Assembly (NCBI RefSeq): GCF_002688585.1
Contig: NZ_CP024034.1
Span: 301,501-365,500, forward strand
Length of the DNA: 64,000 nucleotides
Source of the DNA: Candidatus Fonsibacter ubiquis
GTDB taxonomy: Bacteria > Pseudomonadota > Alphaproteobacteria > Pelagibacterales > Pelagibacteraceae
Direction of reading: 5' to 3'
Within the stretch, counting starts at the first letter, position 1. Every line of letters begins with the position of its first letter. A model generated the notes under the pieces. It did not search any database, was not told the DNA's origin, and was given only the letters and a program-made list of their open reading frames with translations. Shown here one piece after another: positions 12,198-28,344 of the stretch. The position numbers and the translations under genes were made by a program.

Positions 12198-12803
12198 ATG
12201 AACGTTACTGAATTAATAAAAAAGAAGTTAGAAAAAACTGTCACTAGAGAACAAGCGGAAGCTGCTATTAAAGTTTTACTTGCTTGGGCAGGGGAGAATC
12301 CAAAAAGAGAGGGTTTACTAGATACTCCAAAGCGGGTGATCAAAGCATTTGAAGAATATTTTTCAGGCTATTTAATCGACCCCTATAAAGATTTAGAAAA
12401 AACCTTTGGTGATGTTGAAGGATATGATGACATGGTGATCCAAAAAAATATTTCAATTTATAGTCACTGTGAACATCATATGGCACCTATCGTAGGTGTG
12501 GCTCATGTTGCTTATCTTCCCCATGAAAAAGTTGTAGGACTTAGTAAACTTGCAAGGGTAGTTGAGGCGTACTCGAGAAGATTACAAACCCAAGAGCGAT
12601 TAACTATGGAAATTGCAAATACAATATTTAAGGGTTTAAAAGCCCACGGGGCTGCTGTGAGTATTGATGCTGTTCATCACTGTATGACTTCTCGCGGAAT
12701 TAAAAAGCATGAGGCGACTACAGTTACTAATTATTTCACTGGAATCTTTAAAGAAAGTCATAATCTTCAAAATCGTTTCCTTCATTATATTGGTCAGAAA
12801 TAA
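12198..12803 (+). CDS. folE: GTP cyclohydrolase I
   Basis: Converts GTP to 7,8-dihydroneopterin triphosphate, the entry step to tetrahydrofolate. The 201-residue protein has zinc ligands C91 and H94 in SHCEHHMAPIVG and C162 in HHCMTSRG. LSKLARVVEAYSRRLQTQER forms the usual GTP-pocket helix. The folate link matters because a CADD-family gene, predicted to supply p-aminobenzoate, is 4.4 kb downstream. The next gene's ATG follows directly after the stop. Confidence 0.97.
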   Translation: MNVTELIKKKLEKTVTREQAEAAIKVLLAWAGENPKREGLLDTPKRVIKAFEEYFSGYLIDPYKDLEKTFGDVEGYDDMVIQKNISIYSHCEHHMAPIVGVAHVAYLPHEKVVGLSKLARVVEAYSRRLQTQERLTMEIANTIFKGLKAHGAAVSIDAVHHCMTSRGIKKHEATTVTNYFTGIFKESHNLQNRFLHYIGQK

Positions 12804-16758: not shown

Positions 16759-17034
16759 ATGAACAAAAAACAATTAGTGGCTAAAATAGCTACTGCTTGC
16801 AATATGGGCAAAAGTGATGCCGAAAAAACCTTTGATAAAATACAAGATATCATTCTTGACTCACTGAAGAATGATGAAACTGTAAAAATCGCAGGTTTTG
16901 GTACGTATAAAGTTGCAAAAAGAAAAGCTAGAACTGGAAGAAATCCAAGAACAGGAGAAAGTATCCAAATCGCAGCTTCTCAAAAAGTTAAGTTTTTGCC
17001 AGCAAAAGCTTTAAAGGAGATGTTCAATAAGTAA
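16759..17034 (+). CDS. hup: HU family DNA-binding protein
   Basis: Nucleoid-associated histone-like protein, 91 residues, binding and bending DNA as a dimer. It opens MNKKQLVAKIATA and carries the HU signature GFGTYKVAKRKARTGRNPRTGE with the DNA-binding arm and the conserved Arg-Asn-Pro tip. It could be HU or the closely related IHF; the sequence fits HU better. It stands alone between an upstream dyad and a strong downstream hairpin, so it is probably monocistronic. Confidence 0.95.
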   Translation: MNKKQLVAKIATACNMGKSDAEKTFDKIQDIILDSLKNDETVKIAGFGTYKVAKRKARTGRNPRTGESIQIAASQKVKFLPAKALKEMFNK

Positions 17035-17076: not shown

Positions 17077-17198
17077 ATTAAATTCTCCTTATATTTTTCA
17101 ATTAATTTAGTCTTTTTTTTAAATTTTTTTTCAACCTTAACTTGTTTGTATATAAATTTAATTAATTTATAACTTAAATAAACAATTTGGAGAAAAAC

Positions 17199-17870
17199 AT
17201 GTTTTCTAAAGAACTAAATGCAAAATTAGATGAATTTCATCTTCTAAAACATCCATTCTATCAAGCATGGAATGAAGGTAAATTATCAAGAGAAATTATT
17301 AAAGATTACGCTGAGCAATATTATCATCACGTAAAAGCATTTCCTCGCTACATTAGTGCAACTCACTCAATTTGCGAAAACATTGCTGATAGAAAAATTC
17401 TATTAGAAAATTTAAATGATGAGGAAGATAAAAATAACGATCACCCTAAACTATGGAAACAATTTGCGGTAGCTTTAGGAGCTGATGAAAATGAAATCGA
17501 AAAAGTAAAATTAGAAAAATTCACATCTGAGATGATTGATAATTTCTTTAAACAAGGAAGATCAACATATGCTGAAGGACTTGCTTCTTTATACACTTAT
17601 GAAAGGCAAATTCCTGAGATCGCCGATGTTAAGATTGAAGGTCTTAAAAAATTTTACGGTGTAAATTCAGAATCTGGACTTGCATTTTTTGAAACTCATA
17701 AAAAAGCTGATGTTTATCATAGACAAGAGTGCGAAGTGTTACTTGATAATCTTTCTAAAGAAGATCAAGCAAAAGCTGAGAAAGCAGCTCTTTCAACTGC
17801 AAAATATCTCTGGAATTTTCTTTCAGGCGTAGCTCAAAAACATAATCTAAACGTTCAAGCAGCGGCCTAA
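17199..17870 (+). CDS. CADD family protein, predicted self-sacrificing p-aminobenzoate synthase
   Basis: Heme-oxygenase-fold diiron protein, 223 residues from the ATG at 17199, preceded by GGAG; an in-frame TTG at 17187 is a less likely start. It matches the CADD folate-related family. Ligands known from Chlamydia trachomatis CADD are all present at the same spacing: E75, H82, E135, H167, D171 and H174. So are the sacrificed tyrosine (Tyr21 in KHPFYQAW) and the lysine proposed as amino donor (Lys145 in ADVKIEGL). In Chlamydia, CADD makes p-aminobenzoate from its own residues, bypassing PabABC. It is flanked by hairpins and is probably its own transcript. A TenA/PqqC-like function is the less likely alternative. 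Confidence 0.88.
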   Translation: MFSKELNAKLDEFHLLKHPFYQAWNEGKLSREIIKDYAEQYYHHVKAFPRYISATHSICENIADRKILLENLNDEEDKNNDHPKLWKQFAVALGADENEIEKVKLEKFTSEMIDNFFKQGRSTYAEGLASLYTYERQIPEIADVKIEGLKKFYGVNSESGLAFFETHKKADVYHRQECEVLLDNLSKEDQAKAEKAALSTAKYLWNFLSGVAQKHNLNVQAAA

Positions 17871-17883
17871 TTAAGTTTTTTTT

Positions 17884-17920
17884 AAATATCCTGTGGCAAA
17901 TTAAGCCACAGGATATTTTT
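17884..17920 (+). terminator. Rho-independent terminator after the CADD gene
   Basis: Fourteen-base perfect stem AAATATCCTGTGGC / GCCACAGGATATTT with a seven-base loop, running into TTTTT at the 3' side. It starts 14 bases after the CADD stop and separates it from the serCAB operon. The clearest intrinsic terminator in the window. Confidence 0.9.
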
Positions 17921-17943: not shown

Positions 17944-19104
17944 ATGACAGTCGAAAGACCCAATTCAAAACCCGATAGAGCTTTTTTTTCATCAGGTCCT
18001 TGCGCAAAAAGACCTGGTTGGTCAATTTCTAATATCCCAACATTTACATTAGGTAGATCGCATCGATCAAAAATTGCAAAAGAGAAATTAAAAGAATTAA
18101 TTACTTCATCAAAATCATTATTAAAACTTCCAAGCGATTATAAAGTTGGAATAGTTGCCGGTTCAGATACGGGTGCGATTGAAATGGCAATGTGGAGTTT
18201 GCTTGGAGCAACGGGAGTTGATGTTTTAGGATGGGAAAATTTTGGTAATGATTGGGTTAAAGATGCAGTCAGCCAACTAAAAATAAAAAATTTAAATGTG
18301 CATAAAGCAGATTATGGAAAGCTACCTGATTTAACAAAAGTCGATTTTAATAATGATGTTATATTTACATGGAATGGAACAAGTTCTGGAGTGTGTCTAC
18401 CTGATGCAAATTGGATAAAAGAAGACCGAAAGGGCCTTACACTATGTGATGCAACATCATCCGTTTTTGCAATGCCAATGGATTGGACAAAATTAGACGT
18501 AATTACCTGGTCATGGCAGAAGGTGTTAGGAGGCGAGGCTGCCCATGGAATGATTGCATTATCCCCTAAAGCTTTAGAGAGATTAAAAACCTATCAACCT
18601 AGTTGGCCAATTCCTAAAATATTTAGACTTGCTGAGGATAAAAAAATATTAGAGGGAGTTTTTGAAGGCGAGACAATCAATACTCCATCAATGCTTTGCG
18701 TTGAAGACTGTATAGATGCATTATTATGGATTGAGTCTATCGGTGGATCTGAAGGAGCAATAAAAAGATCGAAGAAAAATTTAGAAGAAGTTAAGTTTTT
18801 TGTTAAAGAAAATAAAGATTGGATTGATTTTTTAGCAGAGAAAGAAAATACAATTTCATCAACCAGTATTTGTTTAAAGATTACTGATCCAAAATTTAAA
18901 AAATTAAGCAAAGATGAACAGGCTGCAAAATTAAAGACTATTAATCAAATATTAGAGAAAGAAAATATTGCTTATGATATAAATTCTTATAGAACTGCAC
19001 CTGCAGGCTTTAGAATCTGGGGTGGTGCAACGGTTGAGTCTACTGACATTGAAAAATTACTTCCTTGGATCAAGTGGGCTTATTTGACAAATTTAAATGT
19101 ATAA
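17944..19104 (+). CDS. serC: Phosphoserine aminotransferase
   Basis: PLP enzyme that makes 3-phosphoserine from 3-phosphohydroxypyruvate and glutamate. At 386 residues it is the alphaproteobacterial/methanogen-type SerC with the N-terminal PDRAFFSSGPCAKRPGW motif. The PLP lysine is Lys193 in TWSWQKVLGGEAAHGM. It opens the serC-serA-serB operon; its stop overlaps the serA start by eight bases (ATGTATAA). Upstream is the CADD terminator, so an operon promoter should lie in the short AT-rich gap. Confidence 0.95.
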   Translation: MTVERPNSKPDRAFFSSGPCAKRPGWSISNIPTFTLGRSHRSKIAKEKLKELITSSKSLLKLPSDYKVGIVAGSDTGAIEMAMWSLLGATGVDVLGWENFGNDWVKDAVSQLKIKNLNVHKADYGKLPDLTKVDFNNDVIFTWNGTSSGVCLPDANWIKEDRKGLTLCDATSSVFAMPMDWTKLDVITWSWQKVLGGEAAHGMIALSPKALERLKTYQPSWPIPKIFRLAEDKKILEGVFEGETINTPSMLCVEDCIDALLWIESIGGSEGAIKRSKKNLEEVKFFVKENKDWIDFLAEKENTISSTSICLKITDPKFKKLSKDEQAAKLKTINQILEKENIAYDINSYRTAPAGFRIWGGATVESTDIEKLLPWIKWAYLTNLNV

Positions 19105-20689
19105 AGTTTTAATAGCAGACAAACTTAGTAATGAGGCGTTAGCCATTTTTAAAGAAAATGGAATTGAAGCTATTACTAAAACTGATCTTGATGCAAAATC
19201 ATTAATAAAAGAATTACAAGATTGTGATGCTTTAGTTGTAAGATCTGCAACAAAAGCAACTAAAGAAGTAATAGAGTCATGCAAGAAACTTAAAGTCATC
19301 GGTAGAGCAGGAATTGGAGTTGATAATGTAGATCTTGATGCTGCAACAAGTAATGGCAAAGTTGTAATGAATACTCCATTTGGAAATTCAATTACAACAG
19401 CTGAGCATGCAATTACATTGCTTTTATCTACTGCAAGACAAATTCCTTATGCAGACAAAACCACCCATGAAGGTAAATGGGAAAAATCTACTATTAAAGG
19501 GGTTGAGGTTACTGGTAAAATTTTAGGAATTATTGGCTGCGGTAATATTGGAACAATTGTTGCTCAACGTGCATTAGGTTTGCAGTTTAAAGTAATTGTG
19601 TTTGATCCATTCCTTCAAGATAAAAGAGCTTTAGAGCTTGGAGTAGAAAAAGTAACATTAGATGATTTGTTCAAAAGATCAGATTTTATAACACTTCATA
19701 CACCCCTTAATGAAAAAACAAAAAATATCGTAAGCAAAGACTCCTTTAAAAAAATGAAAAAGGGAGTTCGTATTGTTAATTGTGCACGCGGAGGACTTAT
19801 TGATGAAGCTGCTTTAAAAGAAAATTTAGAAAGCGGACATGTTGCAAGCGCTGCTCTAGATGTATTTGTGGAAGAACCACCAAAAGGAAGTCCTTTATTA
19901 GGAACTAAAAACTTAATTTTAACGCCACATTTAGGAGCATCCACAACAGAAGCTCAAGAAAAAGTTGCTGTACAAATTGCAGAGCAAATATCAGATTATT
20001 TAAAAACAGGCGCAATCACCAATGCAGTTAACACTTTTTCTTTAACAGCAAAAGAATATCAATCTGTTAAACCATTCTTAAAGTTATCAAGTTTGTTAGG
20101 AGGCTTTGCTGGTCAATTAACTGAAAACGCTATTAGATCTGTTCAAATAGAATTTGAAGGAACAGCAACAAATGTAAATAGCACCCCGATTACACAAACT
20201 ATTATTTACAGTTTATTAAAACCAACAACAGAAAGTGTTAATGTTATTAACTCTGTTTTAGTTGCAAAAAGTAAATCGATTTCAATTTCAGAAGTTAAAC
20301 ATCAAAAAGAAAATGATTATCAATCGTTGATTAAATTAACTGTCACAACAGATAAACAAACTCGCTCTGTGTCCGGAACTATTTTTGGTGGTAAAGCAAG
20401 AATTGTTGAAGTTAAAGGAATTAAAATAGAGGCAGATCTATCAGAGCATAACTTATATGTCTCAAATCAAGATAAACCTGGTTTTATTAAAGACTTATCA
20501 AAAATTTTAGCTGATAATAAAATTAATATAGCTACTTTTCATTTAGGTAGATTAAGCAGTGGCGGGGAGGCGATTGCTATTATTTCAACAGATAATAAGA
20601 TTGAAAATTCAGTTGTTGAAAGTATAAAAAAAATTCCATTAGTAATACAGGCAAAATATATTCAATTTAAAGACAAAGAGAATGAATAG
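19097..20689 (+). CDS. serA: D-3-phosphoglycerate dehydrogenase
   Basis: NAD-dependent first step of serine synthesis. The 530-residue long form has the substrate domain (VVRSATKATKEVIESC), the Rossmann segment GKILGIIGCGNIGTIVAQRA, the catalytic-arm motifs NCARGGLIDEAAL and LTPHLGASTTEAQEKVA, an intervening domain, and a C-terminal ACT domain (NQDKPGFIKDLSKILADN) that could sense serine. Eight-base overlaps join it to serC and serB. Confidence 0.97.
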   Translation: MYKVLIADKLSNEALAIFKENGIEAITKTDLDAKSLIKELQDCDALVVRSATKATKEVIESCKKLKVIGRAGIGVDNVDLDAATSNGKVVMNTPFGNSITTAEHAITLLLSTARQIPYADKTTHEGKWEKSTIKGVEVTGKILGIIGCGNIGTIVAQRALGLQFKVIVFDPFLQDKRALELGVEKVTLDDLFKRSDFITLHTPLNEKTKNIVSKDSFKKMKKGVRIVNCARGGLIDEAALKENLESGHVASAALDVFVEEPPKGSPLLGTKNLILTPHLGASTTEAQEKVAVQIAEQISDYLKTGAITNAVNTFSLTAKEYQSVKPFLKLSSLLGGFAGQLTENAIRSVQIEFEGTATNVNSTPITQTIIYSLLKPTTESVNVINSVLVAKSKSISISEVKHQKENDYQSLIKLTVTTDKQTRSVSGTIFGGKARIVEVKGIKIEADLSEHNLYVSNQDKPGFIKDLSKILADNKINIATFHLGRLSSGGEAIAIISTDNKIENSVVESIKKIPLVIQAKYIQFKDKENE

Positions 20690-21566
20690 TTCTTCTGAGC
20701 TAGTCTGTACTTTCGTAGCCAAGAATAAATTAAATCATAAAAGAATAATAAATTTTTTCTCAAAAATTCAAAATACTAATGATTACAAAATACTTTCCAA
20801 TAAAGCTCTCGATCTTTATTGTGATGATATAGGTAAAAAAAAAAGAGATAGACTTAGAAATTTTTGTTTTAAAAATAAAATTGATATTTGCATTCAGCTA
20901 GCAAAATGGAGAAAGAAGAAAATATTTCTAGCAGACATGGATGCCACAATGATCAAAGATGAAACTTTAGATAATCTTGTAAAATTTGCTGGAATAAAAG
21001 TAGATATTGATAAATTAAGTAAACTTGCAATGGATGGAAAAATTAGTCTAAGAGATACATTAAAATTTAGAGTTAGTTATTTAAAAGGTAAAAGTGCAAA
21101 TCTTATCAAACAAGTAATTAATAAAATTAGATTTAATGAAGGGTCGAAGGTTTTATTAAAAACTCTTAATAAAAATGGTTATCATACGAGTTTAGTCACT
21201 GGTGGGTTTCAGCCAATCTCCACTTATGTTGGAAAATTTTTAGGATTTAAAAAAGTGATTAGTAATAGATTTGTAATAAAAAATAATAAATTTACAGGTA
21301 AATATATTCCAATTACCGGCAAGCAGAATTCAAAATTGGTTTATTTAAATGAGATTTGTAAGCAAAAAAAATTAAATAAATTCAAAGATACTATTTGTGT
21401 GGGCGATGGAGCAAATGATCTTGGTATGTTACAAAATTCTGGTCTTGGTATAGGTTATTATCCGCATTCAATTGTAAAAAAAACAGTCGATAACAATATC
21501 CAATTTACTGATCTAAAAACAATTTTATTTTATTTGGGTTTTACTGAAAAAGAATTTTCTAAATAA
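20682..21566 (+). CDS. serB: Phosphoserine phosphatase
   Basis: HAD-family phosphatase giving L-serine. The nucleophile motif is DMDATM with Asp85 and Asp87; the SLVTGGFQPIS motif II and GDGANDLGML motif IV follow. Length (294) fits proteobacterial SerB with an N-terminal extension. It completes the serCAB operon. Its ATG overlaps the serA stop (ATGAATAG), and its stop overlaps the convergent bcp gene by eight bases. Confidence 0.94.
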   Translation: MNSSSELVCTFVAKNKLNHKRIINFFSKIQNTNDYKILSNKALDLYCDDIGKKKRDRLRNFCFKNKIDICIQLAKWRKKKIFLADMDATMIKDETLDNLVKFAGIKVDIDKLSKLAMDGKISLRDTLKFRVSYLKGKSANLIKQVINKIRFNEGSKVLLKTLNKNGYHTSLVTGGFQPISTYVGKFLGFKKVISNRFVIKNNKFTGKYIPITGKQNSKLVYLNEICKQKKLNKFKDTICVGDGANDLGMLQNSGLGIGYYPHSIVKKTVDNNIQFTDLKTILFYLGFTEKEFSK

Positions 21567-28267: not shown

Positions 28268-28344
28268 GGCGGGGTAGCTCAGTTGGTTAGAGCGCAGGAC
28301 TCATAAGCCTGAGGTCGGTGGTTCGATCCCACTTCCCGCTACCA
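28268..28344 (+). tRNA. tRNA with CAU anticodon, probably elongator tRNA-Met
   Basis: A 77-base cloverleaf. Acceptor GGCGGGG pairs with TCCCGCT (two G-U pairs), the D arm is GCTC...GAGC, the anticodon loop is CTCATAA (CAT at 34-36), the T arm is GGTGG TTCGATC CCACT, and CCA is encoded. The acceptor is that of alphaproteobacterial elongator Met rather than initiator. The lowest anticodon-stem pair is an A-G mismatch. tRNA-Ile2 (lysidine-modified CAU) cannot be excluded by anticodon alone, but the acceptor disfavours it. Confidence 0.93.

Follow-up and report, generated by a model that had tools for sequence, protein, structure and literature searches.

A CADD-family protein of freshwater SAR11 as a candidate self-sacrificing p-aminobenzoate synthase, and its exchange in place with pabB-pabA-pabC in related lineages

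The window, by which we mean the whole stretch of 64,000 nucleotides that was analyzed (contig NZ_CP024034.1 of Candidatus Fonsibacter ubiquis, positions 301,501 to 365,500), carries a gene for a 223-aa protein of the CADD family between an HU-like gene and serC. The host chromosome is closed in a single contig of 1,160,202 bp and is 99.88% complete. Its nearest named relatives are Fonsibacter/LD12-type single cells at 92-95% identity; the host is thus a freshwater SAR11 bacterium, and not of the marine type proposed in the first-pass annotation. The closed LD12 genome of the isolate LSUCC0530 is reported to have a size of 1.16 Mbp (PMC6018831). The genes and elements of the locus are as follows.

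12198..12803, + strand: folE (GTP cyclohydrolase I), named from the first-pass annotation and the sequence, ending 4.4 kb upstream of the CADD gene
16759..17034, + strand: gene for an HU-like DNA-binding protein, the upstream neighbor, conserved in LD12/HIMB114-type SAR11
17189..17192, + strand: Shine-Dalgarno-like GGAG, 6 nt before the ATG, as read from the sequence
17199..17870, + strand: CADD-family (TIGR04305) predicted self-sacrificing p-aminobenzoate (pABA) synthase, 223 aa, ATG start
17884..17918, + strand: terminator-like hairpin of the CADD gene, 14 pairs, loop of 7
17944..21566, + strand: serC-serA-serB, the downstream neighbors, conserved in LD12/HIMB114-type SAR11

The ATG at 17199 is the likely start, given the GGAG six bases 5' of it; an alternative TTG 12 nt further upstream would precede this ribosome-binding site and was regarded as less likely. 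The hairpin agrees with the terminator that had been claimed for this gene, and suggests that CADD is probably a transcription unit of its own between the HU-like gene and serC. Regarding the upstream side, no consensus sigma-70 promoter was found on the + strand between the HU-like gene and CADD, promoter-like sites being fewer than in shuffled sequences, and an Rfam search for structured RNAs or riboswitches near CADD returned only a tRNA at 28268-28341. The gene ranks 6th of the 64 open reading frames in the window for C-ending two-fold and Ile codons, which is suggestive only as a proxy of expression. Its dN/dS of 0.05-0.09 against eight LD12 relatives shows that it is under purifying selection. 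The product of folE, GTP cyclohydrolase I, catalyzes the first step of the pterin branch, and the distance of 4.4 kb that had been pointed out is correct; this proximity was not counted as a functional linkage because it is seen only where the whole block is conserved, namely, in the LD12/HIMB114-type lineages.

The protein matches the TIGR04305 profile (fol_rel_CADD) at 1.2e-92 with 309 bits, above the cut-off of 200, while it scores 39.8 bits with the PqqC profile TIGR02111 (cut-off 240) and 25.1 bits with the BesC profile (cut-off 500), both far below. Its Pfam matches are limited to the broad TENA/PQQC and haem-oxygenase-2 families, and among solved structures only NePabS of Nitrosomonas europaea (NE1434; 9pj4) and CtCADD of Chlamydia trachomatis (CT610; 1rcw and 8va9) are strong relatives at the sequence level, with E values of about 1e-46; CtCADD is 38% identical to the Fonsibacter protein. 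An AlphaFold2 model, calculated from an alignment of 34 natural homologues (pLDDT 94.7, pTM 0.91), has the CtCADD entries as its best structural matches (rmsd 1.3-1.4 A, TM 0.91-0.95), followed by PqqC, which aligned at about 4.6 A. Membership of the CADD family, including its fold, is thereby confirmed. PqqC, BesC, UndA, and TenA have the heme-oxygenase-like fold in common with CADD, but their chemistry is different.

The residues of interest were numbered by mapping onto CtCADD, and their codons, all on the + strand, are as follows.

17259..17261, +: Tyr21, predicted sacrificial tyrosine (CtCADD Tyr27, NePabS Tyr25)
17307..17309, +: Tyr37 (CtCADD Tyr43; NePabS Tyr41, essential in NePabS)
17421..17423, +: Glu75, metal ligand (CtCADD Glu81)
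17442..17444, +: His82, metal ligand (CtCADD His88)
17598..17600, +: Tyr134, metal-preference position 1 (CtCADD Tyr141; Phe148 in NePabS)
17601..17603, +: Glu135, metal ligand (CtCADD Glu142)
17631..17633, +: Lys145, predicted sacrificial amino donor (CtCADD Lys152, NePabS Lys159)
17685..17687, +: Phe163, metal-preference position 2 (CtCADD Tyr170; Phe177 in NePabS)
17697..17720, +: His167, Asp171, and His174, remaining metal ligands (CtCADD His174, Asp178, and His181)

All six dimetal ligands (three His and three carboxylates) are kept, as the first-pass annotation had stated, and the alignment with CtCADD also bears out its assignment of Tyr21 and Lys145 as the counterparts of the Chlamydia residues. 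The aromatic residues that are essential or proposed for the radical path (Tyr43, Tyr47, and Trp92 in CtCADD) are kept as Tyr37, Tyr41, and Trp86. The spacing, which had been described as identical, agrees overall except for one indel of a single residue between Glu75 and Glu135; it is weak as proof of function because it follows from homology. All 34 diverse homologues in the alignment have the tyrosine and the lysine that correspond to Tyr21 and Lys145, and the sole departure from Lys145 among 102 homologues is an Arg in one Midichloria metagenome-assembled genome. This homologue (Ca. Midichloria HscuESP, locus L098) represents a natural test of the requirement for Lys.

A second protein with the heme-oxygenase fold is encoded outside the window in the same genome (225 aa; G000:C1:107051-107596, L033:1402-2079) and reaches 38.7 bits with TIGR04305. 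It retains all six ligands and has Val and Ser at the positions of Tyr21 and Lys145; therefore, the ligands alone cannot identify a pABA synthase, and judging from the two sequences it is the Tyr/Lys pair that separates CADD from this protein. The second gene adjoins an AMP-ligase-like open reading frame, a TPR-like protein, and a short-chain dehydrogenase.

Self-sacrificing pABA synthesis has been demonstrated for both CtCADD and NePabS (PMC11965152), and by analogy with them the Fonsibacter protein is very likely to be a single-turnover pABA synthase that supplies folate synthesis in freshwater SAR11 in place of PabA, PabB, and PabC. Following the chemistry of these relatives (PMC11965152, PMC13108848), the dimetal site formed by Glu75, His82, Glu135, His167, Asp171, and His174 would activate O2, and an oxidizing hole would travel about 14 A to Tyr21 through aromatic residues such as Tyr134, Trp86, Tyr41, and Tyr37. 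The side chain of Tyr21 would then be cut from the backbone, leaving a glycine behind, and be oxidized, with O2 as the oxygen source, to the carboxylate, while the amino group would be donated by Lys145, which would become aminoadipate. The released pABA would be taken up by dihydropteroate synthase, and the CADD protein would be spent. The cost would be one 223-aa protein per pABA and would scale with the number of folate molecules per cell; this number would be low in very small cells, and two or three genes would be saved.

Sequence alone cannot distinguish sacrifice from catalysis, and the low in vitro conversion by a relative (<0.1 pABA per NePabS monomer; PMC11965152) may also be read in favor of an enzyme that makes pABA catalytically, whose free substrate would be tyrosine, chorismate, or a derivative, and in which Tyr21 and Lys145 would be ordinary active-site residues. 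We consider this improbable. The yield of NePabS was not raised by added chorismate, tyrosine, or p-hydroxybenzoate, and peptides with the Tyr-to-Gly and Lys-to-aminoadipate conversions were detected in that enzyme (PMC11965152); the invariance of both positions in the 34-sequence alignment points in the same direction, namely, to a self-sacrificing synthase.

A search of the whole genome for pabA, pabB, and pabC had been set beforehand as a test, and no complete set was found. Searches with family profiles, on which the absences rest, detected neither PabB nor PabC; of the rest of the folate pathway, the check covered folE and folP, and the dihydropteroate synthase encoded by the latter, which consumes pABA, is present. 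The sole chorismate-binding enzyme lies above the TrpE equivalog (anthranilate synthase) cut-off and below every PabB cut-off, and its gene sits in trpE-trpG-trpD-trpC together with that of the TrpG-type amidotransferase; apart from IlvE and a D-amino-acid transaminase, the genome has no class-IV aminotransferase. Since these enzymes are all present, pABA might be produced by promiscuous TrpE/TrpG together with IlvE or the D-amino-acid transaminase, which would make CADD redundant, and in another bacterium aminodeoxychorismate lyase activity is known for a D-amino-acid transaminase (Rv0812; PMC8105722). This explanation is extremely improbable considering the scores of TrpE, the retention of pabBAC by Pelagibacter genomes that own a TrpE, and the strong purifying selection on CADD.

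The order Pelagibacterales was surveyed in 154 genomes, in which CADD was counted above the TIGR04305 cut-off. We take genus code g7 to be SAR11 subclade I, g3 and g8 subclade II, and g1, g5, and g6 subclade III, partly from named relatives. CADD was found in 25 of the 154 genomes. None of these 25 has two chorismate-binding enzymes, vs. 101 of the 129 genomes without CADD (Fisher p 2e-14, in a test that ignores shared ancestry, with one to three independent exchanges that may lie behind the counts). For roughly a dozen of the remaining 28 genomes without CADD, a PabB-like match is the only one, which is presumably explained by incomplete assemblies that lack TrpE. One genome of the same genus as the Fonsibacter host (G017; about 96% complete, 60 contigs) lacks CADD as well as a second chorismate-binding enzyme, possibly due to an assembly gap.

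The gene neighborhoods provide a closer view of this mutual exclusion. In Pelagibacter (g7), the order is a gamma-synthase-like gene, an MFS transporter gene, pabB, pabA, pabC, HIT, and an FeS-oxidoreductase-like gene; pabB-pabA-pabC occupies this slot in 21 of the 22 g7 loci read, while the other (L180) breaks off after pabA at the end of its contig, and HIT was not detected in the g7 loci L175 and L185. The same slot holds pabB, pabA, and pabC in the separate genus g4 (G018). In all 16 genomes of g3 and g8, CADD lies directly downstream of the same MFS gene; the distance is 74-196 bp in 13 of these genomes and about 910-930 bp in the other three. Five loci (L057, L159, L162, L163, and L166) also have the FeS-oxidoreductase-like gene as the far border of the slot. 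Since CADD lies between the flanks of pabBAC, a single gene stands in place of three in subclade-II-like SAR11. That the slots are one and the same is further strengthened by a nucleotidyltransferase-like open reading frame, which occurs after CADD in g8 and before pabB in G018. Thus, three unrelated multi-turnover enzymes that start from chorismate in Pelagibacter, and that by our inference make the same product, have a single CADD protein as their counterpart, and the claim that CADD acts in place of pabA, pabB, and pabC gains support from the lack of PabB and PabC, the mutual exclusion with pabB, and the replacement in place in sister lineages.

Several loci deserve separate mention. The nucleotidyltransferase-like frame, of about 126 aa, lies next to or near CADD in L159, L162, L163, L165, L166, and L186, and may have a connection with the slot or with folate/cofactor metabolism. 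At L123:2409-3559 of a single-contig genome (G027), a frame break divides pabB into frames of 117 and 192 aa with stops in the HMM match, while pabA and pabC look intact; the split pabB is a pseudogene or a sequence error. In the LD12 and HIMB114-type lineages, CADD is found in a different place, in the order RseP-HU-CADD-serC-serA-serB. SerC was not found in the g7, g3, and g8 genomes tested, and serC-serA-serB follows CADD in the LD12/HIMB114-type genomes.

Some Pelagibacter genomes appear to be without both the pab genes and CADD. Seven g7 genomes (G068, G107, G110, G113, G131, G133, and G136), one of which is about 99% complete, gave no match to CADD, a second chorismate-binding enzyme, or the slot MFS, and loss of the whole operon with pABA auxotrophy is possible from these sequences. 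Together with the distant PqqC and BesC matches, such genomes may be taken to suggest that pABA or folate is scavenged and that CADD has another oxidase role, either PqqC-like or that of another heme-oxygenase-like dimetal oxidase. The profile scores given above fall far short of the PqqC and BesC cut-offs, the residues that are particular to pABA synthesis do not vary in the alignment, and in sister lineages CADD occupies the place of pabBAC, all of which make this explanation highly improbable relative to pABA synthesis by CADD.

Outside SAR11, a PabB above the cut-off occurs in one of 43 genomes with CADD, and 25 of the 43 are without any PabB-model match, and in a sample of 387 Alphaproteobacteria CADD exceeded the cut-off in seven, three of which are SAR11. 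The SAR11 sequences form one clade (100/98), next to which two other alphaproteobacterial genomes are placed; both a single gain with relocation and more than one gain are possible. A bin titled Legionellales (MED753, locus L073) has a CADD inside the SAR11 clade with unrelated neighbors, reflecting a transfer or a mislabelled bin.

Regarding the metal cofactor, two positions next to the metals have been associated with metal preference in the characterized enzymes. Phe occupies both in NePabS, which prefers Fe/Fe, and Tyr occupies both in CtCADD, whose cofactor is Mn/Fe; the engineered NePabS variant F148Y, which corresponds to Tyr/Phe, works with Fe/Fe or Mn/Fe, and F177Y switches to Mn/Fe (PMC11965152). 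The Fonsibacter protein, with Tyr134 and Phe163, belongs to neither the Tyr/Tyr, CtCADD-like Mn/Fe subtype nor the Phe/Phe, NePabS-like Fe/Fe subtype. Tyr/Phe is found in 59 of 59 SAR11 sequences and in 37 of 43 non-SAR11 homologues, the others being four Tyr/Tyr and two Phe/Phe (Nitrosospira); these homologues were picked by similarity to the query, and the fraction is not a fair estimate for the family. A SAR11-specific state is ruled out by the same counts in this query-similar sample. As far as the sampled sequences indicate, the two biochemically studied enzymes, CtCADD and NePabS, are thus both exceptions to the common state. By analogy with the one engineered NePabS variant, the cofactor of the Tyr134/Phe163 enzyme may tolerate Fe/Fe or Mn/Fe.

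Compared with the known systems, the Fonsibacter protein is in the same family as NePabS, with the sacrificial Tyr and Lys, a free-living host, the essential Tyr41 (Tyr37 here), and Phe at the position of CtCADD Tyr170 in common, whereas NePabS has Phe148 in place of Tyr134 and an extra disordered loop. With CtCADD, it has the six ligands, the sacrificial pair, the equivalent of Tyr141, and the fold in common, but differs in Phe163; CtCADD has an added role in host-cell death signaling and its gene is clustered with folate genes. The kind of enzyme is already known, also from free-living bacteria, including Nitrosomonas, Sphingomonas, and Chloroflexi (PMC11965152). The open-access literature searched, which omits key papers, yielded no account of either CADD or pab genes for SAR11; in the searchable literature, the SAR11 setting, the exchange with pabBAC in place, and the prevalence of Tyr/Phe thus appear to be unreported.

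Taken together, SAR11 lineages may have swapped a three-gene multi-turnover pathway for a single-turnover protein in the same slot, with the Tyr/Phe enzyme of the natural majority working with Fe/Fe or Mn/Fe; we put this joint reading forward tentatively, at slightly less than an even chance. If it is true, CtCADD and NePabS would be atypical specialists, and metal flexibility together with very small cells would let free-living oligotrophs afford a suicide enzyme. The exchange in place represents evidence from genetic context that pabBAC and CADD are interchangeable, and the Tyr/Phe finding opens metal selection to direct testing with natural enzymes. SAR11 bacteria rank among Earth's most numerous cells (PMC10030771, PMC7029224), so an essential vitamin route in which one protein is destroyed per product molecule would operate at a very large scale. 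The self-sacrificing route would then act in free-living, nutrient-limited cells, and not only in intracellular bacteria.
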